Shown in pieces: positions 12,032 through 60,432 of a DNA stretch of 64,000 nt. Where the stretch lies: positions 1 through 64,000 of the forward strand of contig JALSRK010000055.1 of assembly GCA_026984795.1 (NCBI GenBank). Reading direction: 5' to 3'. The DNA is from Solibacteraceae bacterium (GTDB lineage: Bacteria > Acidobacteriota > Terriglobia > Bryobacterales > Bryobacteraceae). A program made the position numbers and the translations under genes. The notes under the pieces were generated by a model, which was not told where the DNA came from, searched no databases, and worked only from the letters and a program-made list of their open reading frames with translations. The first letter of the stretch is position 1, and each line of letters begins with the position of its first letter.

Positions 12032-12478
12032 TCAGCACCTTTTTAGAGATTTGGATTTTGGGCCTTCCTGGCAGATGCCGAGGGTCTGAAAAAAGATGCG
12101 CGAAAACGCCCGGACAGGGTGGAAGGAATCAAGACATTGTCGATCGATTATTGGGGACGCGGCGGAAAAAACCCGAAACTCGCAGGTGCGCTCTTGCAGA
12201 GGGGCGCGCCGGGCTCCGGCGAGAGCCTGAGAGGCGTGGGCGGCGGCCACTGAAGCGTGGGTGAGCGGCGATCGAGAGGCGACGGCTCGGGATCCTGGAA
12301 CGATGCGCGCGCCGCCGAGTGACCGGCGGTGAGCTTCCTGATGCGGACGGTGGCTCTTTTGCTTGCAACGCGGGGCGGGAGGTGGCACTATAATGATATA
12401 AGAAGATCTGAAACTATTATATCGTCCAGCGCCGCGCCGTCGTGCGGCCCGTCCCGGAAACGGAGAAAGAACAGAGCC
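12032..12478. other. Long leader region upstream of locus A
   Basis: No gene is supported. The left part faces the start of the minus-strand barrel gene. The right part changes to an AT-rich promoter-like patch at 12387-12423 about 60 nt before the kinase-like gene. Confidence 0.5.
12387..12423 (+). promoter_or_regulatory. AT-rich promoter with inverted repeat, locus A
   Basis: It contains a perfect TATAAT (12389-12394), followed at once by GATATAA (12395-12401) and TTATATC (12417-12423), a 7-bp inverted repeat with a 15-nt loop that could be an operator or a 5' hairpin. No good -35 box is found; TTGCAA at 12363 is 20 nt away. A related string (ACTATTACAGATAAGCAGAC) lies upstream of the second TSUP permease gene. 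Confidence 0.45.
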
Positions 12479-13291
12479 ATGGCCATCATTACGATCTCGC
12501 GGGGCTCGTTCAGCGGCGGGAAGCTGCTGGCCGAGCGTCTGGCGGCGGAGCTGGGCTTCCGGTGCGTGGACCGCGACGTGATCGTCGAGCGCGCGGCCGC
12601 CTATGGCGTCTCCCACCGGGAGCTGCGCGACGCCCTGGAGAAGCCCCCGGGGTTCCTCGACCGTTTCCAGCACAAGAAGTACCTCTACCTGACCCTGATT
12701 CAGGCCGCTCTCACCGAAGAGGTGAAGGCCGGCAAGGTGGTCTACCATGGCCACGCCGGGCACCTGCTGCTCAAGGGCGGCAGCCCGGTCTTCCGAGTGC
12801 GCATCATCGCACCGCTCGAATTCCGAATCGCCATGGCCCGGGACCGGCTGCACCTGAGCCGGGACGAGGCGATCCGTCACATCGAGAAGATGGACCAGGA
12901 CCGCAAGCGCTGGGCGCAGTATCTCTATGGCGTGGACTGGACCGATCCACGTCTCTACGACCTCGTCATCAACCTGGAAAACCTGACCATCGACGACGCC
13001 ACGGATGCCGTGGCGCACCTCATCCGCCGCCTGAAGTGTTTCCAGTTCGACCCGGCGTGCCGATCGGCGATGGAGGACCTGGCCTTGGCGAGCAAGGTGA
13101 AAGCCGCCCTGGCGCTGGAAAAGGCCACCGGCCATCTGGAGTTCGAGGTGAGGGCCGCGGCGGGCCGTGTTTCGATCCGCGGCCGGGTGCCCTCGCCCGA
13201 GTTCATCGAGACGGTGCGCGACGTCGCCGAGAAAGTGGCCGGGGTGAAAGAAGTGGACCTTTCCGGCGTGGTCACGCCGACCCACGCATAA
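12479..13291 (+). CDS. Cytidylate-kinase-like protein with BON domain, copy 1
   Basis: 270 aa. The N-terminal two thirds resemble the cytidylate-kinase-like family: IITISRGSFSGGK at residues 3-15 as a divergent P-loop (Lys15 is followed by Leu, not Ser/Thr), DRDVI near 35, RVRIIAPLEFRI near 110, and a closing segment QYLYGVDWTDPRLYDLVINLENL. Residues of about 205-265 look like a BON domain (SKVKAAL...VSIRGRVPS...AEKVAGVKEVDLS), a module usually linked to membranes or phospholipids. GGAGAAAG precedes the start. Two other 270-aa copies lie at 51130 and 53134. The next gene is a TSUP permease 49 nt on, so a membrane-linked regulatory or phosphotransfer role is inferred; real CMP kinase activity is doubtful. 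Confidence 0.8.
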   Translation: MAIITISRGSFSGGKLLAERLAAELGFRCVDRDVIVERAAAYGVSHRELRDALEKPPGFLDRFQHKKYLYLTLIQAALTEEVKAGKVVYHGHAGHLLLKGGSPVFRVRIIAPLEFRIAMARDRLHLSRDEAIRHIEKMDQDRKRWAQYLYGVDWTDPRLYDLVINLENLTIDDATDAVAHLIRRLKCFQFDPACRSAMEDLALASKVKAALALEKATGHLEFEVRAAAGRVSIRGRVPSPEFIETVRDVAEKVAGVKEVDLSGVVTPTHA

Positions 13292-13340
13292 GGAGACCCA
13301 GCGGCATGTGGACGGAACGCAGCAGAGGACACTCACCGAG

Positions 13341-14450
13341 ATGTCGATCCTATTACCTGTTGCAGGCTTGAGCATCAATCTTTTTTTGCTCGTGGGCGCC
13401 GGCGCCATGATCGGATTCCTTTCCGGGTTGCTCGGCGTAGGCGGAGGGTTCCTGCTCACGCCGATATTGATCATGATCGGCATCCCGCCCACTGTTGCCG
13501 CGGCTTCCGACTCCTGCCAGATCGTCGGCGCCTCCTCTTCGGGGGCGGCGGCGCATTTTCGTTTGGGCAACGTGGACTACCGCATGGGCGGCATCCTGTT
13601 GCTCGGAGGGCTCACCGGAGCCGCCATCGGCGTGCGAATCATCCGCGTGTTGCGCATGATGGGCAATGCCGACCTGCTGATCTCGCTCACCTACATCTTT
13701 GTGCTCGGCACGGTGGGCACATTGATGTTCCTCTCGAGTATCCGTAATCTGCGGCGCGGCACGATGCCAGTGGGCGGCCGGAGCCATCGTCCCGCGGGCA
13801 GGACGATTCTGGACCGGCTGCCGTTCCAGGTGTCTTTCCCCCACTCCGGCGTCCGCCACTCAATCCTGGTTCCGTTCTTCGCCTGCGTGCTGGTCGGCAC
13901 GCTGGCCGCCATCATGGGCGTCGGCGGGGGCTTCATGATGGTGCCGATGATGGTCTACCTCCTGCGCATGCCCCCTCACGTGGCTGTGGGTACAGACCTG
14001 TTCCAGATCATCTTCACCAGCGCCGGGATCACCTTCCTGCAAGCAACGACCAACTACACGGTGGACATCGTGCTGGCCCTGCTGCTGGCCGCCGGCTCGA
14101 CGATCGGGGCCCAGGTGGGGGCTCGCGTGAGCCGCTTGCTGCGCGGCGAACACCTGATGATCATCCTGGCGGTGATGGCCCTGCTGGTGACGGTGAAGAT
14201 GATCATCGGCGTGGTGAGCGCTCCGGAGAGCCTGCTGAAGCCCGCCGCGGAAGTGACGGCGGAAGTGGAAACCGACACCGAAGCCGACGAAGAGGCGGCG
14301 CGATGGAGGAAGCCTGTCTGGAAAATCGGCAACCCGACCGACCGGACAGCCCGTGAGTCTGTGTCCCGCAGCTTCTTCCTCGTCCACTTGTACCGCTGGC
14401 TGACCGGCGCCGGGATGCCGGAGCCCGCCTTTGCCGGAGGCGTCTCATGA
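13341..14450 (+). CDS. TauE/SafE (TSUP) family permease, copy 1
   Basis: About 369 aa from ATG 13341, chosen because LLPVAGLSI aligns with the start of copy 2. A GTG at 13308 would add eleven residues. The protein has the two-fold TSUP repeat: GFLSGLLGVGGGFLLTPILIMIGIP near residue 24 and AAIMGVGGGFMMVPMMVYLL near 190, with about eight membrane segments, a loop of about 40 residues in the middle and a cytoplasmic-looking acidic stretch (EVETDTEADEE) near the end. The C-terminal extension of about 60 residues is absent from copy 2. TSUP proteins move sulfite, sulfoacetate, sulfolactate or similar anions; the substrate here is unknown. The next gene starts inside its last codons (ATGA overlap). 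Confidence 0.85.
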   Translation: MSILLPVAGLSINLFLLVGAGAMIGFLSGLLGVGGGFLLTPILIMIGIPPTVAAASDSCQIVGASSSGAAAHFRLGNVDYRMGGILLLGGLTGAAIGVRIIRVLRMMGNADLLISLTYIFVLGTVGTLMFLSSIRNLRRGTMPVGGRSHRPAGRTILDRLPFQVSFPHSGVRHSILVPFFACVLVGTLAAIMGVGGGFMMVPMMVYLLRMPPHVAVGTDLFQIIFTSAGITFLQATTNYTVDIVLALLLAAGSTIGAQVGARVSRLLRGEHLMIILAVMALLVTVKMIIGVVSAPESLLKPAAEVTAEVETDTEADEEAARWRKPVWKIGNPTDRTARESVSRSFFLVHLYRWLTGAGMPEPAFAGGVS

Positions 14451-15256
14451 AACGAACCCCCGCAGTTCTCCTCACCTCTGTCCTGGCCCTGGGACTCGCC
14501 GCCCAATCCCGATCCACCATGGACCACGTCGAGGAGTCTTTCGAGCCCCAGCTCTCGGTCCGCCCGGAGACGATCTACATGCGGGCTTTCTATTCCGGGG
14601 CCGTGCTCCACATCGAGGGCCGTGTGCGGGAGGGCTCGGAAGCCATCGTCATCATCCGCGGGCCCCACGACAAGGAGCTGTTCAACAAGAAGGTTCGTTA
14701 TGGGCCGATCTGGATCAGCTCGGGCAAGGTGGAGATCTCGCGGGCGCCGTCACTGTTCTTCGCCTTCCCGAGCCGGCGCGTGGACTCGTTCCTGCCGCGG
14801 GAGGTCATCGACGACTACGAGCTGGACGAAACGGCGGTACGGGACCGGATGAGGGTGCACGCTTTCGGCGAGGAGGTCGACCAGGCGCTGATGCGCCGGC
14901 ATTTCTTCAACCTCAAACGCCAGGAGGGCCTGTATGAGACCTTCGACGGGGTGCTGGAACTGAAGCCGGCGGGCGATGGCGCCTCTACCTTCGCCTTCGA
15001 CTTCCACTGGCCGAAGACCGCTCCGCCACAGACCTACGAGATCGAACTCTACGAATGCCGCGAGGGACAGGTGGTGGGAGAGGCGGGCCGGAGTCTGAAG
15101 CTGGTGCTCACGGGCTTTCCCGGCTTCGTGCACAATCTGGCGATGCAAAAAGCCCGCTGGTACGGGCTGTTCGCCGTGCTGTTCGCGATCTCGTTCGGCT
15201 TGGGGATCGACTTCCTGGCCCGGAAGATCTTCGGCCGCTCCGCACGCGCGCACTAG
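14447..15256 (+). CDS. TIGR02186-like membrane protein (Alph_Pro_TM type)
   Basis: 269 aa, with a signal peptide at residues 1-20, a large periplasmic beta-rich part (LSVRPETIYMRAFYSGAVLHIEG, then VIIRGPHDKELFNKKVRYGPIWI) and one membrane helix near the C-terminus (WYGLFAVLFAISFGLGIDFLA) followed by basic residues. This matches the TIGR02186 / putative transmembrane family that, from memory, often sits beside TauE/SafE permeases. It overlaps the permease gene by four bases, so the two are coupled and the protein is likely an accessory subunit or periplasmic partner of the permease. No catalytic residues can be named. Confidence 0.75.
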   Translation: MKRTPAVLLTSVLALGLAAQSRSTMDHVEESFEPQLSVRPETIYMRAFYSGAVLHIEGRVREGSEAIVIIRGPHDKELFNKKVRYGPIWISSGKVEISRAPSLFFAFPSRRVDSFLPREVIDDYELDETAVRDRMRVHAFGEEVDQALMRRHFFNLKRQEGLYETFDGVLELKPAGDGASTFAFDFHWPKTAPPQTYEIELYECREGQVVGEAGRSLKLVLTGFPGFVHNLAMQKARWYGLFAVLFAISFGLGIDFLARKIFGRSARAH

Positions 15257-17597: not shown

Positions 17598-18470
17598 CTA
17601 GTAGATTTCAGGGACGAAGCGGCGGCCGAGCAGCGGGGTGACGTCGTCGTAAGCCTTGCTCTCGTCGCGCTCCGGCAGGACCACTTTTTCCCGAGGAAGC
17701 TCCTCGTAGGGGATCAGACTGAGCAGGTGGGCGATGCAGTTCAACCGCGCCCGGCGCTTGTCGTCGGCGCGGACGACATACCAGGGGGCGTGTTCGGTGT
17801 CGGAGGCGGCGAACATCATGTCGCGGGCGCGGGAGTAGTCGTACCAGCGGCGGCGGGACTCCAGATCCATCGGACTGAGCTTCCACTGCCGGAGCGGGTC
17901 GTCGATGCGTTTCTGGAACCGCCGCTCCTGCTCCTCGTTCGAGACGCAGATCCAGTACTTGACAAGGATGATGCCGTCCTCGACGAGGAAGCGTTCGAAG
18001 TCGGCGATGTTGTCCAGAAAACGGTCGTATTCTTCCTCGGTGCAGAAGTTCATTACCCGCTCGACGCCGGCGCGGTTGTACCACGAGCGGTCAAACAGCA
18101 CCACCTCGCCGGCGGCCGGCAAATGTTGCAGGTAGCGCTGAAGGTAAAGCTGGGTGCGTTCGCGGTCGCTGGGCACCGGCAGGGCGATGACGCGGAAGAC
18201 GCGCGGGCTGACCCGCTCGGTGATGCGGCGTATGATGCCCCCCTTCCCCGCAGCATCCCGGCCCTCGAAGATGACGACGATCCGCAGGCCCTTGTACTTG
18301 ACCCACTCCTGGAGCTTGACCAGCTCGATCTGCAACTTGCGCAGCTCGGCTTCGTACTTCTTCCGGGACATTTTGGGCTTGGGCTTCCCGTCGGAGACCA
18401 CCGACATTGGAGGGATGGCCACTTTCACCCGCTTGCGATCCTTGCGCGCCATATCGACTAGGCTCATCAT
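17598..18470 (-). CDS. ppk2: Polyphosphate kinase 2
   Basis: 290 aa, single-domain PPK2. The Walker A motif EGRDAAGKGG (about residues 69-78), the lid RITERVSPR and the FDRSWYNRAGVERVM motif are intact, followed by RQWKLSPMDLESRRRWYDY and APWYVVRADDKRRARLN. PPK2 transfers phosphate between polyphosphate and nucleoside di- or monophosphates in the cytoplasm. The basic N-terminal 30 residues precede the core. Two adjacent ATGs begin the gene (18470 and 18467). It is a single gene between a secreted enzyme and a small membrane protein, with no operon partner. Confidence 0.92.
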   Translation of the reverse strand: MMSLVDMARKDRKRVKVAIPPMSVVSDGKPKPKMSRKKYEAELRKLQIELVKLQEWVKYKGLRIVVIFEGRDAAGKGGIIRRITERVSPRVFRVIALPVPSDRERTQLYLQRYLQHLPAAGEVVLFDRSWYNRAGVERVMNFCTEEEYDRFLDNIADFERFLVEDGIILVKYWICVSNEEQERRFQKRIDDPLRQWKLSPMDLESRRRWYDYSRARDMMFAASDTEHAPWYVVRADDKRRARLNCIAHLLSLIPYEELPREKVVLPERDESKAYDDVTPLLGRRFVPEIY

Positions 18471-51129: not shown

Positions 51130-51942
51130 ATGCCCATCATCACCATATCGAGAGGCTCGTTCAGCGGCGGCAAGGCCCTGGCCGAGTGCCTGCGCCGCCG
51201 GCTGGGCTTCCGCACGATCGACCGCGACGTCATCGTCCAGCGCGCGGCAACCTACGGCGTTTCCGAGAAGGAACTGCAGGAAGCCCTCGAGAAACCGCCT
51301 TCTTTCCTGGAACGGTTCCAGCACAAACGCTACCGCTACCTGGCCATCTTGCAGGCCGCTCTCGCCGAGGAGGTGTGTCCCGGGAAGGTGATCTACCACG
51401 GCCACGCCGGGCATCTCTTACTCAAAGGAGGCAGCCCGGTGCTGCGTGTGCGTGTCATTGCCCCCCTCGAGATGCGTATCAAGATGGCGCAAGACCGCCT
51501 CGAGATCGGCCGCAGCGAAGCGATCTCCTACATCAAGAAAGTTGATGAGCAGCGGCGCCGCTGGACCCAGTTCCTCTACGGCGTGGACTGGACGGACCCG
51601 TCGCTCTACGACCTCGTCATCAACCTCGAGCACATCGACATCCCCCGTGCGTGCCAGATTGTGGCCGATGCGGTCAAGGGCCAGAAATGTTTCGAATACG
51701 ACGAGCAGTGCCGCGATCGCATGCGCGACTTCGTCATCGCCAGCAAGGTGAAGGCGAACCTGGCGATCAACGACGCCACCTCCGATCTCGAAGTGGAGGT
51801 GGACTGCCACGAGGGACTCGTACGCATCGCCGGCAGGATTTCTCGGGTGGAATTGGTTCCCGAGGTGGAACGGATCGCCATGAGCGTGCCGGGCGTCACG
51901 AAAGTCGATCTGAGCAATCTCACGCCGCCTGTTCCTGACTGA
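51130..51942 (+). CDS. Cytidylate-kinase-like protein with BON domain, copy 2
   Basis: 270 aa, the same length as copies 1 and 3. It has ISRGSFSGGKALAE (P-loop Lys followed by Ala), DRDVIVQRAATYGVSEKEL, IYHGHAGHLLLKGGSPVLRVRVIAPLEMRI and YGVDWTDPSLYDLVINLEH. The C-terminal BON-like part is SKVKANLAINDATSDLEVEVDCHEGLVRIAGRIS...AMSVPGVTKVDLS. By eye it is closer to copy 1 than to copy 3. GGGGAGGGG lies before the start. The second TSUP permease gene follows after 139 nt. Confidence 0.8.
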   Translation: MPIITISRGSFSGGKALAECLRRRLGFRTIDRDVIVQRAATYGVSEKELQEALEKPPSFLERFQHKRYRYLAILQAALAEEVCPGKVIYHGHAGHLLLKGGSPVLRVRVIAPLEMRIKMAQDRLEIGRSEAISYIKKVDEQRRRWTQFLYGVDWTDPSLYDLVINLEHIDIPRACQIVADAVKGQKCFEYDEQCRDRMRDFVIASKVKANLAINDATSDLEVEVDCHEGLVRIAGRISRVELVPEVERIAMSVPGVTKVDLSNLTPPVPD

Positions 51943-51994
51943 TCACCCCCTGGACCGTGCGGCGCGGCCTCTTGTACTCGTGTCAAGAATCGTC

Positions 51995-52020
51995 TACTAT
52001 TACAGATAAGCAGACCTGAA
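51995..52020 (+). promoter_or_regulatory. Promoter-like patch shared with locus A
   Basis: ACTATTACAGATAAGCAGAC followed by CTGAA resembles ACTATAATGATATAAGAAGA followed by TCTGAA before copy 1 (12387), with small gaps. It lies about 60 nt before the GTG start of the permease. Confidence 0.35.
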
Positions 52021-52081
52021 TATATTCTTGTGCCCCGCGGGCGCTTCCGTCTGCGATCACACGGAAAGGACGGGTTCCACC

Positions 52082-53032
52082 GTGCATGTCCTGTTGCCCG
52101 TCGCCGGCCAGAGCGTGGCGCTGCTCTTGCTGGTCGGCGTCGGTTCTCTGGTTGGTTTCCTTTCCGGTCTCCTAGGCGTGGGCGGCGGCTTTTTGATGAC
52201 GCCGATCCTGATCATGATCGGGATTCCCGCCACGGTGGCCGCCGCCAGCGATTCCTGCCAGATCGTCGCGGCCTCTTCCTCGGGCCTGGCGGCCCATTTC
52301 CGCCTCGGCAACGTGGACGTGAAGATGGGTCTGGTGCTGCTGGCCGGCGGCATATCCGGAGCGTCCGTGGGAGTGGAAGTCATCAAGTGGTTACGCCAGA
52401 TCGGCGATGCCGCCGTGCTCATCGACATCACTTATGTCGTGATGCTTACTTTGATCGGGGGTCTGATGCTGGCGCAATCGCTGAGGACGTTAAGCCGGGG
52501 GCGCGCGCTCAGAAATCACTCGAAGAGCGTCCGGCCCCTGGCCTTCGGCCGGCGGCTGCCCCTGCAGATGGAATTCCGGCGATCGGGCGTGCGCCACTGT
52601 GTTTTCGTTCCATTTCTCTTATGCAGCGCAGTCGGTTTCCTGGCCGCAATCATGGGAGTCGGCGGCGGCTTTATCATGCTGCCGATGATGGTCTATGTTC
52701 TCGGCATGCCGGCCCACGTCGCGGTGGGAACGAGTCTGTTCCAGATCCTGTTCATGTCCAGCGGCATCACCATCGAACAGGCGTCGCTCAACCACACCGT
52801 GGATGTCGTGCTCGCCTTGACCTTGGCCCTCGGGTCGACGATCGGGGCACAGTTCGGCGCCGCCGCGAGCAAGCGGCTGCGGGGCGAACAGTTGGTGATT
52901 ATCCTGGCGATTCTGGCGCTGCTGGTGGCGGCCAAGATGCTGGTGGGCCTTTCCGCCACACCGCCGTCGATGCTCGAGCCGGCCGTCGAGGTCTCGACGG
53001 CGGCGCCTCCGGCTGACGTCCTTTCCGCTTGA
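52082..53032 (+). CDS. TauE/SafE (TSUP) family permease, copy 2
   Basis: About 316 aa from the GTG at 52082, with GAAAGGA 11 nt upstream. It aligns along its length with copy 1: VLLPVAGQSV, GFLSGLLGVGGGFLMTPILIMIGIP, CQIVAASSSGLAAHFRLGNVDVKMG, AAIMGVGGGFIMLPMMVYVLGMPAHVAVGTSLFQILFMSSGIT. It stops about 60 residues earlier, without the acidic C-terminal extension. About eight membrane segments. No TIGR02186 partner follows; a third kinase-like gene comes 101 nt later. Confidence 0.87.
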   Translation: MHVLLPVAGQSVALLLLVGVGSLVGFLSGLLGVGGGFLMTPILIMIGIPATVAAASDSCQIVAASSSGLAAHFRLGNVDVKMGLVLLAGGISGASVGVEVIKWLRQIGDAAVLIDITYVVMLTLIGGLMLAQSLRTLSRGRALRNHSKSVRPLAFGRRLPLQMEFRRSGVRHCVFVPFLLCSAVGFLAAIMGVGGGFIMLPMMVYVLGMPAHVAVGTSLFQILFMSSGITIEQASLNHTVDVVLALTLALGSTIGAQFGAAASKRLRGEQLVIILAILALLVAAKMLVGLSATPPSMLEPAVEVSTAAPPADVLSA

Positions 53033-53133
53033 GCCGCTTCCCCGCCCGCCGGCTCGGCCGGCCGGACGCCGGCGACGGTCGCTCGTAGTTCCCACCTGCC
53101 TGCGGCTATCATGGCAACAGGACGTCAGGATTC

Positions 53134-53946
53134 ATGTCCGTAGTGACCATCTCCCGGGGCTCGTTCAGCGGCGGCAAGAAACTGGCTGAGTGTCTCGCCC
53201 AGCGGCTCGGCTACCGCTGCATCGACCGTGACGTCATCGTCGAAAAGGCGGCCGCCGCCGGCGTGTCCCAGCAGGAGCTGCACGAAGCTCTCCAGAAGCC
53301 GCCGACGTTCCTCGAACGGTTTACTCACAAGAAGTACCTCTACCTGACCCTGATCCAGGCAGCTCTGGCCGACGAGGTTCGCACCGGGCGCGTGGTCTAT
53401 CACGGCAACGCCGGTCATCTGCTCCTCACCGCCGGCCCCCCAGTCTTGCGGGTGCGGCTCATCGCCCCCTTGAGGCTCCGCGTGGCGATGGCGCGGGAAC
53501 GCCTGCGACTGACTGAGCAGGAAGCGGTGGACTACATCCGCCGCCGTGACGACGAACGCCGGCGGTGGACTCAGTATCTGTACGGGGCCGATTGGGGCGA
53601 CCCGTCGCTTTATGACGTCGTCGTCAACATTGAGTACATCACCGTTCCGGAGGCTTGCCGGGCTTTGGCGGCCCTGGTTCGCGCCCGGGCCTCGTACGAG
53701 TTCGGCCCCGAGTATCGCGCCATTCTCGAAGACCTCGCCACCGCCAGCCGCGTCCGCGCCAAGCTCGCGCTGACGCCGGAAACCTCCCACCTGGAATTCA
53801 GCGTCCTCTCCCGAAACGGCGTCGTCCACCTTCGGGGCAAGGTTCCGAATCTCGATCTTCTTCCCCGAATCGAACAGATCGCAGTCTCGGTGCCCGGCGT
53901 CCAGAAAGTGAACCTCACTGAGGTTTCGCCGGCTCCCCAGGTTTGA
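53134..53946 (+). CDS. Cytidylate-kinase-like protein with BON domain, copy 3
   Basis: 270 aa, the most diverged of the three. The N-terminus VVTISRGSFSGGKKLAE is kept, HGNAGHLLLTAGPPVLRVRLIAPLRLRV replaces HGHAGHLLLKGGSP, and DERRRWTQYLYGADWGDPSLYDVVVNIEY follows. The C-terminal BON-like part is ASRVRAKLALTPETSHLEFSVLSRNGVVHLRGKVP...AVSVPGVQKVNLT. It precedes the third permease operon with a 350-nt gap. As in the other copies, the P-loop lysine lacks a following Ser/Thr, so kinase chemistry is uncertain. Confidence 0.8.
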   Translation: MSVVTISRGSFSGGKKLAECLAQRLGYRCIDRDVIVEKAAAAGVSQQELHEALQKPPTFLERFTHKKYLYLTLIQAALADEVRTGRVVYHGNAGHLLLTAGPPVLRVRLIAPLRLRVAMARERLRLTEQEAVDYIRRRDDERRRWTQYLYGADWGDPSLYDVVVNIEYITVPEACRALAALVRARASYEFGPEYRAILEDLATASRVRAKLALTPETSHLEFSVLSRNGVVHLRGKVPNLDLLPRIEQIAVSVPGVQKVNLTEVSPAPQV

Positions 53947-54297
53947 AGGGCGCGTGCGCAACCGGCTGTGAAATCAACGAGTCCAGACGGTATTGTGGCA
54001 ATTCCCGACAGGCGCGGCCCGAGCAGGTGTCCAACGGTGCGACGGAAGACCATGCCAAGGCGCGGCGCCCGGGATGCCGGTCTCGGCGTCCCGGTTCAAG
54101 CCCCGGATTGTGCGCCGCCGTTCGAGCGCCCTGCTGAGGGACCGGGGTGGTCTCCGAGGACGCCTGAAGGGGCCCGGATCATTCGTCCCCTCCCCGGCGC
54201 CGTGGCTCCCCGTGGTCGTATCATACGTTCTAAAGGCGTTCCCAGGCCCGGCCGGCCTTGTCCGGCTGAGAACCGGGGGTGTCCGGGGACTTTCTCG
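53947..54297. other. Intergenic stretch, nothing recognised
   Basis: GC-rich sequence between kinase-like copy 3 and the small membrane protein. I find no gene, RNA, repeat copy or clear promoter here. Confidence 0.5.
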
Positions 54298-54594
54298 ATG
54301 TTCGGCATTCAGGCTCTTCTTGTTCGCGCCGCCGCTTTACTGTTGGTCCTGCCGGCCGGGTTGGCTGCCGCAGGCGCAGCCGGCCAGCGCCTTGTCTTCG
54401 TCGCCGACTCGCGCCGCTATGCCGGCTGGCAAGCCTGGTTTACGAACCTTTACAACGAGAGTCTGGCGCAGTTCACGCTGCTGACCATCGTACTCGTGCC
54501 GTTGCTGGCGCTGGCGCTGAGCAGCGTGATGGGGTTTTTTCTCAGCCGCACCGGAATCGACCTGAAGTCCCGGCCTGGCGGCGGCGCACACTGA
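54298..54594 (+). CDS. Small membrane protein beside TSUP permease
   Basis: 98 aa. A signal-like N-terminal segment (LVRAAALLLVLPAGLAAAGA) is followed by a periplasmic stretch of about 30 residues (VFVADSRRYAGWQAWFTNLYNESL) and one strong membrane helix (FTLLTIVLVPLLALALSSVMGFFL), then a basic end. From memory, a small protein of this build is found beside TSUP permeases in Desulfovibrio (the DVU0150 kind); this is not verified. The permease gene starts 37 nt later, so it is probably its partner. Confidence 0.65.
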   Translation: MFGIQALLVRAAALLLVLPAGLAAAGAAGQRLVFVADSRRYAGWQAWFTNLYNESLAQFTLLTIVLVPLLALALSSVMGFFLSRTGIDLKSRPGGGAH

Positions 54595-54631
54595 TCGGAC
54601 TGTTCTTGAGAAAGGTGAAGGCATAGAGACG

Positions 54632-55705
54632 ATGGACTGGCTCCACATGACCATGCCGATCGCCGGGGTCGAGGTCTTCTGGCCCGGATTGGTGATTCTC
54701 GGCCTGGGCGTCGGCATCATCGGGAGTTTCTTCGGCATGGGCGGGGGATGGATGGTCACCCCCGGTCTGAACATCCTCGGCTTCCCCATGGCATTCGCGA
54801 TCGGCACCGACATCACCTCCATGGCGGGCAACTCCTTGATTTCAACGATGCGGCACGCCAGATTCGGCAACGTCGATTACCGCCTGGGCGCCGTTATGGT
54901 GATCGGGACGGTAAGCGGTTTCGAGGCCGGGGCCCAGATGATCATGTGGCTCGAGTCCCTCGGCCACGTCGATCTGTTCGTCCGGGTCGGCTATCTCGTT
55001 TTGCTGGCCCTGATCGCCTGGGTGATCTTCACCGATGTCCAGGCCAAGCGGCGCCGGGATGCGGAACTCCGGGCCGCCGGCCGGGCCGCTTCGGGCGACG
55101 AGGGCGGAATCCAGTGGCACAGGAAGTTCCACCGGCTTCGCATCCCGCCGATGATCCATTTCAAGACCTCCGGCATCTATTGCTCAGTCTGGCTGCCCAT
55201 CGGCGTCAGCTTCCTCACCGGGTGGCTGGCCGGGATCCTGGGCATCGGCGGCGGCTTGATCCGATTGCCCGCCCTGATCTATTTGATCGGCGTGCCGACC
55301 CATGTGGCCGTCGGCACCGATCTTTTCGAAGTCGTCATCAGCGCCTTGTATGGCTGCGGCTCCTACACTTACAAAGGGCGCACGGAACTCCTCGCGGCGG
55401 TCATCATGCTGTGCGGGGCCGCGCTCGGGGCCCAGATCGGCGCGGTGGCGACCAAGTACGTCAAGGGTTACGGAATCCGGCTCTTCTTCGGCGTGGCGGT
55501 GGCCGGCTGCGGGCTCTCGATCGCTTTCAAACTGGCCGCCTCGGCCTTTCCGGCGGCGCGCTGGTTCTTTGACCCGGCCGCGGCAGTACTGATCCTCGGT
55601 CTCGTGGTTGCCCTGGCGGGTTTCATCGTCTTCAAGTTCCTGCGCGGGGCGCGCGAAGAGATCGCCATGAAGCGGGCGCAGCAGAGAAGCTACGTGGAGA
55701 AGTGA
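54632..55705 (+). CDS. TauE/SafE (TSUP) family permease, copy 3
   Basis: 357 aa. It is a different subgroup from copies 1 and 2: GIIGSFFGMGGGWMVTPGLNILGFPMAFAIGTDITSMAGNS in the first half and LAGILGIGGGLIRLPALIYLIGVPTHVAVGTDLFEVVIS in the second. A cytoplasmic basic loop (DVQAKRRRDAELRAAGRAASGDEGG) divides them. About nine membrane segments, ending in a basic tail (REEIAMKRAQQRSYVEK). The stop codon lies two bases before the next start, so it forms an operon with the small membrane protein and the lipoprotein. Confidence 0.88.
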   Translation: MDWLHMTMPIAGVEVFWPGLVILGLGVGIIGSFFGMGGGWMVTPGLNILGFPMAFAIGTDITSMAGNSLISTMRHARFGNVDYRLGAVMVIGTVSGFEAGAQMIMWLESLGHVDLFVRVGYLVLLALIAWVIFTDVQAKRRRDAELRAAGRAASGDEGGIQWHRKFHRLRIPPMIHFKTSGIYCSVWLPIGVSFLTGWLAGILGIGGGLIRLPALIYLIGVPTHVAVGTDLFEVVISALYGCGSYTYKGRTELLAAVIMLCGAALGAQIGAVATKYVKGYGIRLFFGVAVAGCGLSIAFKLAASAFPAARWFFDPAAAVLILGLVVALAGFIVFKFLRGAREEIAMKRAQQRSYVEK

Positions 55706-55707
55706 GG

Positions 55708-56292
55708 ATGGGAGCGATCTTCAGCCTATGCCGCCGAAGCGCTCCGGCGGCGGCTGCGGCGCTCTGGCTGGCCGCTTGCGGGGGGTTGGGGAAGGTCGAA
55801 CAGGGTATCGTGATCGCCGCCGACGGCGAAGTGCTCACCTTGATCCTTGACTCGAATCCCGGCGGCGAGCCGCGGTATGATCGGCTGCCGCCGGTGAAGG
55901 TGAGGATTCCGGAGGACCCCGATCAAATGGGGCCCGCCCCTGCCGCCGGCGAATTGCTCGGCCTCGATACCGCCGCCGGACGCGTTGCCGTATACGACCG
56001 GGCGGCGGGGCGGATCCTCACCATCCGCTTTGAACTCGTCGAGCTGACGGGCGGTGTCTACCCCGACGATCCCCGGGTCAACGGCGGGCGGCTGCCCCGG
56101 ATCGATGAGCAGCGCGGCGCCGTCACCCTCTACTGGCCGCGGACGCGGGAGCTCGCCACGATCCGTGTCGATCCGAAATACCTCCGATTGCCGCCCGATA
56201 CCTGGCGCGCCGGGGACGAAGTCCGATACTACTTCAAAGATCCCGGCCGGGCCCTGCGCATGATGAACGTCTCGAAGGCCGGTCTTCAATAA
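55708..56292 (+). CDS. Putative lipoprotein linked to TSUP permease
   Basis: 194 aa from ATG 55708, which has GGAG nine bases upstream; a GTG at 55702 is too close to that site. The signal peptide ends in a lipobox, LAAC with Cys24. The mature part is beta-rich (GIVIAADGEVLTLIL, PPVKVRIPEDPDQMGPAPAAGELLGLD, RILTIRFELVELTGGVYPDDPRV, LRLPPDTWRAGDEVRYYFKDPG). It resembles, from memory, the DUF4881-type lipoproteins found beside TSUP permeases in Desulfovibrio. It may be a periplasmic binding or gating partner. The PEP-synthase-like gene follows after 107 nt. Confidence 0.7.
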   Translation: MGAIFSLCRRSAPAAAAALWLAACGGLGKVEQGIVIAADGEVLTLILDSNPGGEPRYDRLPPVKVRIPEDPDQMGPAPAAGELLGLDTAAGRVAVYDRAAGRILTIRFELVELTGGVYPDDPRVNGGRLPRIDEQRGAVTLYWPRTRELATIRVDPKYLRLPPDTWRAGDEVRYYFKDPGRALRMMNVSKAGLQ

Positions 56293-56399
56293 GAGTCCCC
56301 CCGGGCGGCGAGGGCCGTTGCCGCCGTCCTTCGCCTTACTGCCGTCCACGATTCCGGCTCTCTTCACCGGGTTCTGGGTGTTGGAGGTCCCGTGCTACA

Positions 56400-59003
56400 G
56401 TGAAGCCAGCGGGGATGTTCCACTGGCCTTTCAGGCGGAAGCAGAGCGCGGAGCCTCCGGCCCCGAAACCGGTGGACGGGCTACAGCGGTTACGTGAGAA
56501 GTACCGGAATTTCCGCGAGCTGCTGGCGCTGAACACTGAATGCCTGGAGGTGATCGTCGGCCTCCAGGAGGATCTCACCTATATCCCGCCCCGCCGTGAG
56601 ATCGTGGGGCCGCGGCTGGATTCCATATTCACCAAAGCTCGCGGCATCGTCTCCGCGCTCGACAGGCTCGTGGGATTTCGGCAGGTGAAGCTCTACGAGG
56701 CCCTGGATCGCCAGCAGGACGAGGTCGAGCGCTACATCGCGGTGCGGGAAGAGCTCTCCCAGCCCCGCATGGCCGCCTGGATGTACGAGATCGGCATGGA
56801 GGACGTCGCCGAGGTTGGCGGGAAGGCCGCCGCCCTTGGTGAGGTGCGCCGGAAACTGGGCATTCCGGTGCCGGCCGGCTATGTCCTGACCACCGAAGCG
56901 TACTGGCAGTTTTGCGGCGTGCCGAACTGGCGCAAGATTCGCGACTCGATCCACGAACTCGAGCCCAACGATCTGGATGCCCTGCGCGAAGTCTCCGGCA
57001 TGCTCCAGGAAACGGTGATGGAAACCCCGCTGCCCCGGGCTATCGAAGTAGCTCTGCTCGACCGCGCCCGGGCAATGGGAGCCAAACGCTTCGCCGTGCG
57101 CTCGAGCGCCGTCGGCGAGGGGCCGGAGGGGGGCGCCCGCACGCTCGCCGGGCAGTTTCTCAGCGTCATCAACGTGCCGGTCGAGGGCCTGGTCGAAGCT
57201 TACAAGCGGGTCGTCGCCAGCCGCTTCAGCGAACGGGCGCTCGCTTACCGCCTCTCGACCGGCCTGCTCGAAGCCGAAACGCCGATGGCCGCCCTCGTGC
57301 TGCCGGTGATCCGGGCGAGGGCCTCCGGCATCCTGTACACCCGGGACCCGGGCAACCCGAAGAGCAAGGAGCTGTGGATTACCGCCACCCGCGGTCTCGG
57401 CCTGGACATCGCCAGCGGGAAGATGCCGGCCGACCTGTTCGTCGTCTCCCGGAGACGGCGTTACCAGACCATCGAAGCGCACATCGCCCGGAAACAACAG
57501 GAGATTCTGCTGCGTCCGGAGGGCGGCGTCGAACACCGCGAGCTTCCCCTGGAGGAATCGGGGGCCCCGAGCCTCGGACCCGAGGCAGTGGCCAGACTGG
57601 CCGAGTATGGCGTCAGGCTCGAGGAGTACTTCGGGGCGCCGCAGGATGTCGAATGGTCGCTCGATGAGGAAGGCAGGATCTGGATTCTCCAGACGCGGCC
57701 CCTGGCCGTGGTGGAGGCCGCCAAAGGCCGGGGGAAGCCGAAAGCGAAGGAAAAACCACTCGTCTCGGGCGGACGGACCATCTACCCCGGACAGGTCTCC
57801 GGACCGGCATACCGGATCGAAGACCTCCACCGCTGCGGCGAGCCTCCGGACGGGGCTGTCGTGTTCCTGCGGCGAGCCTCCCCGGAAATCGTCAAGCTCT
57901 TCCCGCGGATCACCGGGTTGGTGGCTGAATGGGGCAACGTCGCCGGACACGCGGCGGCGCTGCTGCGGGAGTTCAAGATCCCGTCGGTGTTTCTCATGGA
58001 GGGAGCCCTCGAGAAGATCAGCCCTGGCGAGACCGTAAGCCTCGACTCGATCCGCACCGCCATATACTCCGGCCGGCTGTGGGAGAGCCGGCCGGCGGAC
58101 CGTACAGGAGCGGTCTCGCCGCGCGATGCCTCTGACGATCCGATCGGCACTCATATCCTGAGACTCAACCTGCTCGATCCTCAGGCCCACGATTTCCGTC
58201 CTGCTGGATGCAGATCGATCCACGACGTCTTGCGCTATTGCCACGAGAAGGCCATCGAGGCCATGTTCACCGTCAACGACGTGGAACTGGAACAAGGGGC
58301 GGTCCCCGCCAAGCATCTCAAGACCCATCTCCCATTGAACCTGTCGGTTCTGGATCTGGGAGGCGGTCTCAGGATGGAGGATTCCTCCGCCGGTGAAGTC
58401 ACCCCGGAAGAAATCGTCTCACTGCCCTTCAAGGCTCTCTGGCGGGGTGTCACGCACCCTCAGGTGAGCTGGAAACGCGAGATGCCGGTCAGTCTGAGCG
58501 ATCTGGCTTCGGTTGTGGCCGGCTCGCTAAGACCTCAGGACTACCTCACCCGGCCGCTGGGCGGAAAGAGCTATCTGCTGGTGGCCGAAGAGTATATGAA
58601 TCTGAACGCCCGGCTGGCCTATCATTTCACTCTCGTCGATGCCAGCCTCACCGAGATCCCCAGCAAGAACTACATCGCCTTCCGTTTCGTCGGGGGCGGC
58701 GCCACCCCTTTCCGCAAGAACTTGCGGGCCATTTTTGTCGAGCAGGTCCTGGCCCATTACGGCTTCCTTGTAGATCGCCGGGGCGACCTGGTCAACGCCT
58801 GGCTGAAGAAAGCTCCGGCGCCGGAGACGTTCGACGCCCTCGATATTCTCGGCCGCCTGCTTGCTTGCGCCAGCCAGCTCGATATGTTCATGAGTTCTCA
58901 CGAGGTTATGCGGTGGCACGTCCGCCAGTTCCTGGAGGGCAACTACCGGTTCGCGCGCCGAGAAGGAGATGCCCGGGCCGCCGGCGGTGCGCGTCCCGCT
59001 TGA
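56400..59003 (+). CDS. PEP-synthase-like protein without PEP/pyruvate barrel
   Basis: 867 aa from a GTG with GGAGG 12 nt upstream. A helical N-terminal region (about 25-120) is followed by a PPDK/PEP-synthase ATP-grasp domain at about 130-440 (VGGKAAALGEVRRKLGIPVPAGYVLT, KRFAVRSSAVGEG, ILYTRDPGNPKSKELWI, DVEWSLDEEGRIWILQTRPL). A phosphohistidine swivel domain spans about 455-560, with GNVAGHAAALLREFKIPSVF and His517 kept. The expected TIM barrel is absent; instead there is an unrelated domain of about 300 residues (SVLDLGGGLRMED..., KNYIAFRFVGGGATPFRKNLRAIFVEQVLAHYGF). It may phosphorylate itself from ATP and pass phosphate to an unknown acceptor. Confidence 0.82.
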   Translation: MKPAGMFHWPFRRKQSAEPPAPKPVDGLQRLREKYRNFRELLALNTECLEVIVGLQEDLTYIPPRREIVGPRLDSIFTKARGIVSALDRLVGFRQVKLYEALDRQQDEVERYIAVREELSQPRMAAWMYEIGMEDVAEVGGKAAALGEVRRKLGIPVPAGYVLTTEAYWQFCGVPNWRKIRDSIHELEPNDLDALREVSGMLQETVMETPLPRAIEVALLDRARAMGAKRFAVRSSAVGEGPEGGARTLAGQFLSVINVPVEGLVEAYKRVVASRFSERALAYRLSTGLLEAETPMAALVLPVIRARASGILYTRDPGNPKSKELWITATRGLGLDIASGKMPADLFVVSRRRRYQTIEAHIARKQQEILLRPEGGVEHRELPLEESGAPSLGPEAVARLAEYGVRLEEYFGAPQDVEWSLDEEGRIWILQTRPLAVVEAAKGRGKPKAKEKPLVSGGRTIYPGQVSGPAYRIEDLHRCGEPPDGAVVFLRRASPEIVKLFPRITGLVAEWGNVAGHAAALLREFKIPSVFLMEGALEKISPGETVSLDSIRTAIYSGRLWESRPADRTGAVSPRDASDDPIGTHILRLNLLDPQAHDFRPAGCRSIHDVLRYCHEKAIEAMFTVNDVELEQGAVPAKHLKTHLPLNLSVLDLGGGLRMEDSSAGEVTPEEIVSLPFKALWRGVTHPQVSWKREMPVSLSDLASVVAGSLRPQDYLTRPLGGKSYLLVAEEYMNLNARLAYHFTLVDASLTEIPSKNYIAFRFVGGGATPFRKNLRAIFVEQVLAHYGFLVDRRGDLVNAWLKKAPAPETFDALDILGRLLACASQLDMFMSSHEVMRWHVRQFLEGNYRFARREGDARAAGGARPA

Positions 59004-59034
59004 CCGGCGGAAACAGCCCTCGCTAGCCTGATCC

Positions 59035-60432
59035 TTGGCCCCCGGAACCTGCAATCCGCCCCGCATTGTCTTGGCCGGCCTGGCCGGCGACTCGGGAAAA
59101 ACCCTCGTGTCGCTCGGCCTGCTGCTCGCGGCCCGCGAAGCCGGCTTCCCGGTGGCCGCCTTCAAGAAAGGCCCCGATTACATCGACGCTGCCTGGCTGC
59201 GATGGGCGTCCGGCCGCCAGGCCCGGAACCTCGACAGCTACTTGATGGGGTTCGAAAAGTGCGCCGCTTCGTTCGTTCGCCATTCGGCGCGGGAGGGGTT
59301 GAACGTCATCGAAGGCAACCGCGGGCTGTTCGACGGCGCCGACCCGGAAGGGACGCACTCCACGGCCGAGTTGGCCAAGCTCCTCGGCGCCCCCGTCTTG
59401 TTGATCCTCAATGCTACGAAAGTCACCCGCACGGCGGCGGCGTTCGTGTTGGGCTGCCAGTATCTCGATCCGAAGCTGCACGTGAGCGGGGTGATCCTCA
59501 ACCGCGTCGGCACCGTGCGGCAGGAGCGTATCTTGCGTGAGGCCATCGAGAACGCTTCCGGGGTTCCTGTGCTCGGCGTGCTGCCGAAGGTGCGGCCGGA
59601 GAGGGTGCTGCCCGGACGCCACCTGGGATTGATCACCCCGGCCGAGCATCCCCGGATCGGAGAGGTCGAGGCCAACGTCCTGACGCTCGTTCGGGACAAC
59701 GTGGATTTCGACCGGATCCTCGAGATCGCCCGCAGCACGCCGCCCCTGCCGGAGCCCCCCGTTGATCGCGCGCCGCTGCCCGACGGCTCCGGCGTCCGGA
59801 TCGGCTTCGTCACCGATTCGGCGTTCACCTTTTACTACCCGGAGAACCTGGAAGCGATCGAGGCATCAGGCGCGCAGCTGGTCCCGGTCTCACCGCTGGA
59901 GTCGTCCGGCCTGCCGCCGGAGTTGCACGCTCTCTACATGGGCGGCGGCTTTCCGGAAACGCACGGGCTGCGCCTGTCGGAGAACCGCGCCTTCTTGAGG
60001 AGCCTCCGGGAGACGGCGCTGGCTGGGCTGCCGGTCTACGCCGAGTGCGGCGGGCTGATGCTGCTGGCCCGGGCGATCCGCTGGAAGGGCGAGCGCTATG
60101 AGATGGCCGGCGTGCTCCCTGTCGAAGTCGAGGTCACCGCCCGCCCTCAGGGCCACGGCTACACCGAGCTCACCGTGGACCGCCCGAATCCGTTTTACCC
60201 GGTGGGGCTGCGCTTCCGCGGCCACGAGTTCCACTACTCGCGGATCGTCCCCGGCGAGGAGATGCCCGCCGCCGCTTGCGCCGTCACCCGGGGCGCCGGC
60301 TCCTACGACTTCCGCGACGGCCTCGTGGTCGAAAACACCTTCGCCGCTTACACCCACGTCCACGCGCTGGCGACGCCGGAGTGGGCGGCGGGGCTGCTGG
60401 GCGCCGCCCGGCGGTACGCGGATCAGGCGTAG
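59035..60432 (+). CDS. CobB/CbiA-type a,c-diamide synthase (possibly siroheme amidase)
   Basis: 465 aa from a TTG; the start is uncertain by a few codons. The N-terminal P-loop NTPase part has VLAGLAGDSGKTLVSLGLL and FKKGPDYIDAAWL. The C-terminal glutamine amidotransferase part has ALYMGGGFPETHG, YAECGGLMLL with the nucleophile Cys338, and AYTHVHA. CobB/CbiA amidates cobyrinate side chains. Close relatives (DsrN) amidate siroheme in dissimilatory sulfite reducers. No other cobalamin or dsr gene is present here, so cobalamin versus siroheme cannot be decided. It begins 31 nt after the PEP-synthase-like gene. Confidence 0.85.
   Translation: MAPGTCNPPRIVLAGLAGDSGKTLVSLGLLLAAREAGFPVAAFKKGPDYIDAAWLRWASGRQARNLDSYLMGFEKCAASFVRHSAREGLNVIEGNRGLFDGADPEGTHSTAELAKLLGAPVLLILNATKVTRTAAAFVLGCQYLDPKLHVSGVILNRVGTVRQERILREAIENASGVPVLGVLPKVRPERVLPGRHLGLITPAEHPRIGEVEANVLTLVRDNVDFDRILEIARSTPPLPEPPVDRAPLPDGSGVRIGFVTDSAFTFYYPENLEAIEASGAQLVPVSPLESSGLPPELHALYMGGGFPETHGLRLSENRAFLRSLRETALAGLPVYAECGGLMLLARAIRWKGERYEMAGVLPVEVEVTARPQGHGYTELTVDRPNPFYPVGLRFRGHEFHYSRIVPGEEMPAAACAVTRGAGSYDFRDGLVVENTFAAYTHVHALATPEWAAGLLGAARRYADQA

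Follow-up and report, generated by a model that had tools for sequence, protein, structure and literature searches.

A candidate accessory module of dissimilatory sulfur metabolism: a kinase-like/BON protein with TSUP, TIGR02186 and PEP-synthase-like partners

Described relatives and the genes of locus A

In Desulfovibrio vulgaris, the sigma-54 regulator DVU0151 is predicted to act on the DVU0150-DVU0146 operon, whose function is listed as transmembrane transport; the TSUP/PSE substrates are called unknown (PMC4641369). According to a comparative study of the sulfate transporters of sulfate reducers, no function could be predicted for the TSUP proteins that abound in these organisms (PMC5840216). 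TauE of Cupriavidus necator, a TSUP that has been studied, is a proposed sulfite exporter (Weinitschke 2007, as cited in PMC3949148). The papers that we consulted on Acidobacteria with dsr genes, and on further non-classical sulfate reducers, mention neither TauE, TSUP (where searched) nor cytidylate kinase. We use the label KBON for a protein that joins a Cytidylate_kin2 domain to a BON domain, and the label PEPS for a PEP-synthase-like protein. The initial annotation held that the function of a KBON, TSUP and TIGR02186 combination is undescribed, and within open-access papers we likewise found no published description of it.

In this study, we analysed a window of 64,000 nucleotides from a Solibacteraceae bacterium, in which all of the features described below lie on the plus strand. 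Pfam profiles and alignment confirmed the three genes of locus A where the initial annotation had placed them. KBON-A (12479..13291) has a CMP-kinase-fold domain (Cytidylate_kin2, PF13189; E=1.3e-38, 133 bits, cut-off 28) and a BON domain (PF04972, E=1.2e-9), and it has no signal peptide. A weak, possible -10 element, TATAAT, was read directly from the sequence upstream (12389..12394), and AT-rich GATAA/TGATAT stretches that are TATAAT-like also lie upstream of KBON in other loci (L008, L013, L015, L033). The TSUP (TauE/SafE) permease gene follows at 13341..14450 (PF01925; E=1.9e-45, 155.8 bits, cut-off 32.6); the open reading frame extends from 13308, and alignment to homologues places the likely start at the ATG at 13341 (MSILLPVAGLSI) and not at the GTG at 13308. 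The TIGR02186 (Alph_Pro_TM) gene, at 14447..15256, overlaps the TSUP gene by 4 bp. Its product matches PF09608 (E=5.3e-39, 134.7 bits, cut-off 24.5) and is modelled (pLDDT 90) with an N-terminal hydrophobic helix, an Ig-like beta-sandwich and a C-terminal transmembrane helix. A fold search returned generic Ig-like matches only (best Z 9.6), which are uninformative on function. Because the score of 66.5 against the NCBIfam TIGR02186 equivalog is under the cut-off of 255, we consider this protein a divergent member, of the same superfamily and a different subgroup.

TSUP and TIGR02186 genes overlap or nearly abut across phyla, as surveyed with profiles built from resolved open reading frames. 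The pair of Alphaproteobacteria (Sinorhizobium meliloti pSymB, Ruegeria TM1040) shares the families, the two-gene order and the start/stop overlap with locus A. However, KBON, PEPS and sulfate-reduction genes are absent nearby in the three regions read, and the alphaproteobacterial TIGR02186 protein is only about 24% identical to that of locus A. Because the pair occurs there without KBON, the gene arrangements suggest that TSUP-TIGR02186 is the more general unit and that KBON is an added partner.

The variant copy, locus B

The initial annotation described locus A as repeated in whole 36 kb away. Locus B (51130-60432) does contain two KBONs and two TSUPs, but TIGR02186 is absent from it, with a single match in the whole genome, and it carries additional DVU0150-family, DUF4881, PEPS and CobB/DsrN-like genes. 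The order is KBON-TSUP-KBON, followed by a DVU0150-type operon, PEPS and the DsrN/CobB-like gene. KBON-B1 (51130..51942; Pfam, start by homology) is 61% identical to KBON-A; TSUP-B1 (52082..53032; alignment and hmmsearch, reading frame open from 52028) is 59% identical to the locus A permease; and KBON-B2 (53134..53946; Pfam) is 56% identical to KBON-A. Each of the three KBONs of the window groups with the KBON of a different acidobacterial locus, and we therefore rejected a recent duplication of locus A into locus B.

The next three genes encode a DVU0150-family small membrane protein (54298..54594; NF040783, 74.7 bits, cut-off 70), TSUP-B2, of the type that accompanies DVU0150-family and DUF4881 genes (54632..55705; PF01925, E=7e-40), and a lipoprotein-like DUF4881 protein whose gene overlaps TSUP-B2 by 4 bp (55702..56292; PF16222, E=3e-40). 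This order recurs in L008, L015, L019, L024, L026 and L082. In its DVU0150-family gene, which TSUP and DUF4881 genes follow, locus B resembles the D. vulgaris operon, a comparison made on DVU0150 and the listed transport function, whereas KBON is not described in that operon (PMC4641369). The PEPS gene (56400..59003) encodes a PPDK_N domain (PF01326), a phosphohistidine swivel domain (PF00391) and a conserved C-terminal region that has no Pfam match, and a CobB/DsrN-like glutamine amidotransferase gene, which matches cobB models, begins 31 bp past it (59035..60432). Elsewhere, the gene order is PEPS-DsrN-sat (L010) or PEPS-dsrD-DsrN (L008 and L082).

Association with sulfate and sulfite respiration

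KBON loci were found in 12 phyla. The initial annotation took the locus A genes to be a coupled module, a reading that conserved adjacency in distant phyla would favour, and a TSUP gene lies within 10 kb of KBON in 24 of 33 loci, counting contexts that reach 7 kb or more in each direction. Complete KBON/TSUP/TIGR02186/PEPS sets are present in several phyla. Among 247 Acidobacteriota genomes, 12 carry TIGR02186 and 12 carry full-length PEPS; all of these are KBON-positive, and 11 have both genes (p=7.5e-17 each), so that TIGR02186 presence is nested within KBON presence. Generic PEP synthases match the PEPS profile over positions of about 92-571 only. The single module of the initial annotation therefore stands, but that reading missed PEPS, a frequent two-component system and the link to dissimilatory sulfate/sulfite reduction.

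The neighbours of KBON include aprBA, sat, qmoABC, dsrAB, dsrMKJOP and siroheme genes, and at some loci they form a single same-strand run with KBON. One such run reads aprBA-qmoABC-sat-KBON-KBON-MFS-KBON-TSUP-PEPS (L118); at another locus, KBON is flanked by qmoA and dsrP (L110); and the reductive-type genome G256 holds three KBONs inside an apr-sat-qmo-dsr cluster. The window's own genome has dsrA, dsrB and aprA. KBON is also present in the sulfate-reducing acidobacterium MAG CO124 (PMC10564751; loci L014 and L033). In the 247 Acidobacteriota genomes, KBON occurs in 17 and dsrA in 23, with 16 having both, one KBON only and seven dsrA only (p=7e-19). dsrA was found in 37 of the 46 genomes of KBON loci, which mostly belong to other phyla. 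The remaining nine lack a dsrA match, and some of them have module partners (L039, L047, L060); incompleteness of the bins may account for only some of these cases. In Desulfobacterota, strong KBON occurs in 31 dsrA-positive and 4 dsrA-negative genomes (p=4e-7). At the level of gene content, KBON, TIGR02186 and full-length PEPS co-occur with one another, and with dsrAB/aprA, much more often than chance would predict, and the association of the module with sulfur respiration is well supported. By its co-occurrence with reductive dsrAB/aprA, the module belongs to the dissimilatory sulfate-reduction gene set as an accessory member. Because many sulfate reducers lack strong KBON, including 69 dsrA-positive Desulfobacterota genomes, it is neither required nor a core member.

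We regard it as highly unlikely that the KBON family serves signalling or stress responses in general and owes its sulfur link to hitch-hiking by inheritance within dsr-rich lineages. Related genomes are not independent, and weaker KBON paralogues occur in dsrA-negative Desulfobacterota (20 of 70 KBON genomes at E<1e-40). However, the association persists at genus level (dsrA in 11 of 11 acidobacterial KBON genera, p=2e-12), and KBON is embedded in sat-apr-qmo-dsr clusters in several phyla. Moreover, KBON is absent from 57 dsrA-bearing Bacteroidota genomes, whose lower-scoring dsrA is probably of the reverse type and which are probably green sulfur bacteria running Dsr in reverse; for the same reason, we rejected KBON as a generic dsr marker.

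An alternative that we consider doubtful, but not negligible, is that the module is an exporter of toxic sulfite or other intermediates in a stress response under a histidine kinase/response regulator (HK/RR) pair, and is not a sulfate importer. By analogy, the proposed sulfite exporter TauE would favour it, and 15 of the 33 contexts have HK/RR genes no more than 10 kb away. In addition, the complete Acidobacteriota genomes G073 and G121, which are sulfite-only candidates, carry a lone KBON and dsrA with neither aprA nor module partners nearby. Against this alternative, KBON-less reductive Dsr organisms are common, and KBON tracks aprA, a sulfate-activation gene, better than dsrA alone; in Acidobacteriota, aprA occurs in 14 of 17 KBON-positive genomes and in 2 of 7 dsrA-positive genomes without KBON.

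KBON, PEPS and a proposed role

The AlphaFold model of KBON-A (pLDDT 90) is closest to the solved structure 3hdt (Z 20.4, rmsd 1.9 over 164 residues). KBON shares fold and family with the Cytidylate_kin2 structures 3hdt and 3fdi (Z 19.4 for the latter), but these have no BON domain, and their GR motif is replaced in KBON by a YHG(H/N)AGH signature. The fold is also common to CMP kinases such as those of E. coli and S. aureus (Z about 15), whereas KBON adds the BON domain, does not conserve the Walker-A lysine and scores 40.5 bits against the 102 required by the CMP/dCMP kinase equivalog TIGR02173. R8, R32, R116, R142 and the YHG-x-AGH motif are invariant or nearly so and lie on the nucleotide-kinase fold. 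Across 84 KBONs, position 14 is Gly or Ala and position 15 is Lys in only 43. We therefore rejected the simple reading of KBON as an active cytidylate kinase, although an atypical P-loop is also seen in 3hdt and 3fdi, which leaves the loss of kinase activity unproven. An anti-phage defence role was set aside as well, PADLOC giving only a weak 18-bit match.

Like the PEP synthase/PPDK/rifampin phosphotransferase superfamily, PEPS has ATP-binding and phosphohistidine domains, and it retains the phosphohistidine site and ATP residues; H517, R234, R433 and C604/H608/H615/H742 are conserved. In contrast to that superfamily, it has its own conserved C-terminal region, and no PEP/pyruvate-binding C-terminal barrel was detected, PF01326 and PF00391 being the only matches at E<=0.001.

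PPi is a product of Sat, and AMP is a product of Apr. KBON might be an active nucleotide kinase that turns the AMP produced by AprAB back into ADP, while PEPS would process the AMP and pyrophosphate of Sat/Apr and the permease would be a mere regulon neighbour. The NMP-kinase fold, the retained PEPS residues and the position of both genes beside sat/apr are consistent with this scheme, which we nevertheless think improbable: the P-loop lysine is not conserved, TSUP is paired with KBON in most loci, and KBON persists in G073 and G121, which are dsrA-positive and aprA-negative.

The interpretation that we favour, with moderate confidence, assigns these genes to an accessory module of reductive (dissimilatory) sulfur metabolism, in which a TSUP-TIGR02186 sulfur-oxyanion transporter would be regulated by cytoplasmic KBON and placed under phosphoryl control. 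Observations on the other side are the alphaproteobacterial TSUP-TIGR02186 pair with neither KBON nor dsr genes close by, the lone KBON of G073 and G121, and the nine KBON genomes with no dsrA match. TSUP and the membrane-anchored, extracytoplasmic TIGR02186 protein would form one transporter unit, most likely for sulfate uptake or sulfite movement. More tentatively, KBON may regulate this unit: its conserved Arg/His set could bind a nucleotide or oxyanion, e.g., AMP, APS or sulfate, and the BON domain could attach it to the membrane or to the permease, which would match transport to the sulfate-activation state of the cell. PEPS, with its intact phosphohistidine site, and the frequent HK/RR pair would supply the phosphoryl-based control. 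A bolder version, which we judge unlikely, would make the module a new kind of sulfur-oxyanion transport system in sulfate respirers, energised or under phosphate control, in which PEPS phosphohistidine formed from ATP would feed HK/RR and KBON, and KBON would gate TSUP-TIGR02186 by the level of sulfur nucleotides.

The module bears on how sulfate and sulfite cross the membrane in non-classical sulfate respirers. It singles out one TSUP subtype, with a fixed set of partners, whose distribution in about a dozen phyla follows that of the reductive sulfate pathway and which the sampled probable reverse-Dsr oxidisers lack; therefore, it is a concrete, testable candidate. Because it accompanies sulfate/sulfite-respiration genes so widely, we consider it a strong candidate for a component of sulfur transport or its control that is still missing from this metabolism, and KBON and its partners may serve as a genomic marker of reductive versus oxidative Dsr metabolism in uncultured lineages.

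Gene content and protein features of the module

Pfam searches recovered in locus A the three genes that the initial annotation had placed there: KBON, a protein with a Cytidylate_kin2 domain and a BON domain (12479-13291, forward strand), is followed on the same strand by a TauE/SafE permease (TSUP; start at 13341 by homology) and by TIGR02186 (Alph_Pro_TM), which overlaps TSUP by 4 bp. The claim that the whole is repeated 36 kb away holds for KBON and TSUP but not for TIGR02186, which has one copy in the genome and none in locus B. This downstream locus (51130-60432) reads KBON-TSUP-KBON-DVU0150-TSUP-DUF4881-PEPS-CobB/DsrN, where PEPS is a PEP-synthase-like protein (56400-59003). All three strong KBONs of the genome lie on this contig, as do its single TIGR02186 and its single full-length PEPS. 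A polyphosphate kinase 2 gene close to locus A (17598-18470, reverse strand) is probably unrelated to the module because it was absent from every other KBON locus examined. An AT-rich stretch upstream of KBON (GATAAC/TGATAT, then CTCNGAAA-like letters), common to 12387-12425 and to loci L008, L013, L015 and L033 of other genomes, is possibly a shared promoter or operator.

The predicted KBON structure has a pLDDT of 90, and a fold search with its kinase domain returned 3hdt (Z 20.4) and 3fdi (19.4), followed by CMP kinases at about 15. R8 is present in 84/84 copies, and the two glycines of the GG motif are each conserved in 81/84; position 15 is Lys in 43/84 and Gln, Glu, Thr, Ala or others in the rest. 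The BON domain is probably cytoplasmic, because no signal peptide is apparent at the KBON N-terminus (MAIITISRG). The TIGR02186 model (pLDDT 90) comprises an N-terminal helix, an Ig-like beta-sandwich and a single long C-terminal helix, and its fold search gave no specific match. PEPS retains the phosphohistidine H517 together with R234 and R433, and its C-terminal region, which had no Pfam match, carries invariant C604, H608, D609, R612, H615 and H742. Generic PEP synthases align to only part of the PEPS profile. Full-length PEPS thus stands apart as a PEP-synthase-like family, marked by a conserved C-terminal region of its own.

Association with sulfate-reduction genes

The module is associated with sulfate reduction, and the gene order places the two together. 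A single scan with the three window KBONs as queries yielded 79 loci, mostly from metagenome bins, and the KBON tree carries 12 phylum labels, including Acidobacteriota, Myxococcota, Chloroflexota, Bacteroidota, Gemmatimonadota, Zixibacteria, Poribacteria, Elusimicrobia and Omnitrophota. When all surrounding ORFs were clustered without prior expectation, the clusters after KBON, TSUP and PEPS were response regulators, TIGR02186, AprA, histidine kinases, QmoA/B/C, AprB, Sat and others. Curated NCBIfam models confirmed cluster representatives of aprA (902 bits), aprB (201), sat (359; TIGR00339), dsrK (728), dsrO (319), dsrP (478), dsrB (484) and dsrC (117); the qmoC representative scored 233, under the model cut-off of 300.

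Among the 33 KBON contexts that extend 7 kb or more to both sides, TSUP lay within 10 kb in 24, as the initial annotation had expected of KBON homologues, PEPS in 18, TIGR02186 in 14 and a sulfate-reduction gene in 20; at least one of these occurred in 29. Marietou et al. give nine TSUP genes for Desulfovibrio vulgaris (PMC5840216), and therefore we estimate a chance of about 5% that a random 20 kb stretch contains one. The clearest ARRANGEMENTS are those of L118, L110, L061 and L113-L115. L118, from a genome of the window's own class, runs on a single strand as aprB-aprA-zinc ribbon-YkgJ-qmoA-qmoB-qmoC-sat-KBON-KBON-MFS-KBON-TSUP-PEPS. In L110 (Bacteroidota), KBON adjoins qmoA and is separated from dsrP by a single gene; L061 reads aprBA-zinc ribbon-YkgJ-histidine kinase-TSUP-TIGR02186-PEPS-response regulator-response regulator-KBON; and in genome G245 (L113-L115), five KBONs and several PEPS are spread over the 55 kb that precede aprBA-qmo-dsrAB.

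Genes of siroheme biosynthesis (SUMT, CysG N-terminal) are recurrent neighbours of KBON (L010, L013, L015-L018, L030, L033, L034, L070, L073, L080, L113), which is consistent with the cofactor need of Dsr. In several phyla, the interval between aprA and qmoA often encodes two small unstudied proteins, a CxxCxxCC protein (YkgJ-like, PF03692) and a zinc ribbon of the Ogr/Delta type (L008, L013, L023, L033, L061, L083-L085, L108, L109, L117, L118; zinc ribbon only in L083). In L043, L050 and L074, a short histidine-kinase-like protein (cluster 19) is directly downstream of KBON and TSUP is absent nearby; these KBONs possibly form a separate functional sub-branch.

Distribution across genomes

In 247 Acidobacteriota genomes, with KBON called at E<1e-60, a threshold set after the score gap was seen, KBON occurs in 17, dsrA in 23 and both in 16 (p=7e-19 by genome, uncorrected for kinship; p=2e-12 by genus, this collapse being the sole kinship correction). 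The lone KBON-positive genome lacking dsrA is 64% complete and has aprA. TIGR02186 and full-length PEPS each occur in 12/247 genomes, all 12 KBON-positive in both cases, and aprA accompanies each in 11/12, the exception being G136 (67% complete). PEPS is often multi-copy in KBON-positive Acidobacteriota, and its full-length form is found there only in such genomes. Two complete Acidobacteriota genomes with dsrA and without aprA (G121, G073) carry one KBON each (L111, L112), with no module partner nearby.

The dsrA gene is present in 37 of the 46 genomes with KBON loci. Among 198 Desulfobacterota genomes, strong KBONs occur in 31 with dsrA versus 4 without (p=4e-7), and 69 dsrA-positive genomes have no strong KBON; weaker paralogues are more loosely tied to dsrA. 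In Bacteroidota, 59/395 genomes have dsrA, 57 of them lower-scoring and probably green sulfur bacteria, with oxidative or reductive type assigned from score, genome size and operon rather than a dsr tree. One of the 57, a single contig with two dsrA copies, matches Chlorobaculum tepidum. KBON was found in 0/57; the two reductive-type genomes differ, with three KBONs in G256 and none in G845.

Proposed role of the module

The D. vulgaris operon DVU0150-DVU0146 is a predicted sigma-54 target without an assigned substrate (PMC4641369). Excerpts of the account by Marietou et al. (PMC5840216) describe sulfate reducers as rich in TSUP genes of unassignable function and do not mention KBON, and the terms we searched retrieved no mention of the module in open-access papers on acidobacterial sulfur metabolism. 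We propose that KBON would be a cytoplasmic regulator, which is the least certain step of the mechanism. TSUP and TIGR02186 would form a single transporter, a reading supported by their start/stop overlap, which is widespread and is present in the Alphaproteobacteria pair as in the module. Given the gene context and the record of the TSUP family, of which TauE is a proposed sulfite exporter (PMC5840216, PMC3949148), the substrate would most likely be sulfate or sulfite.
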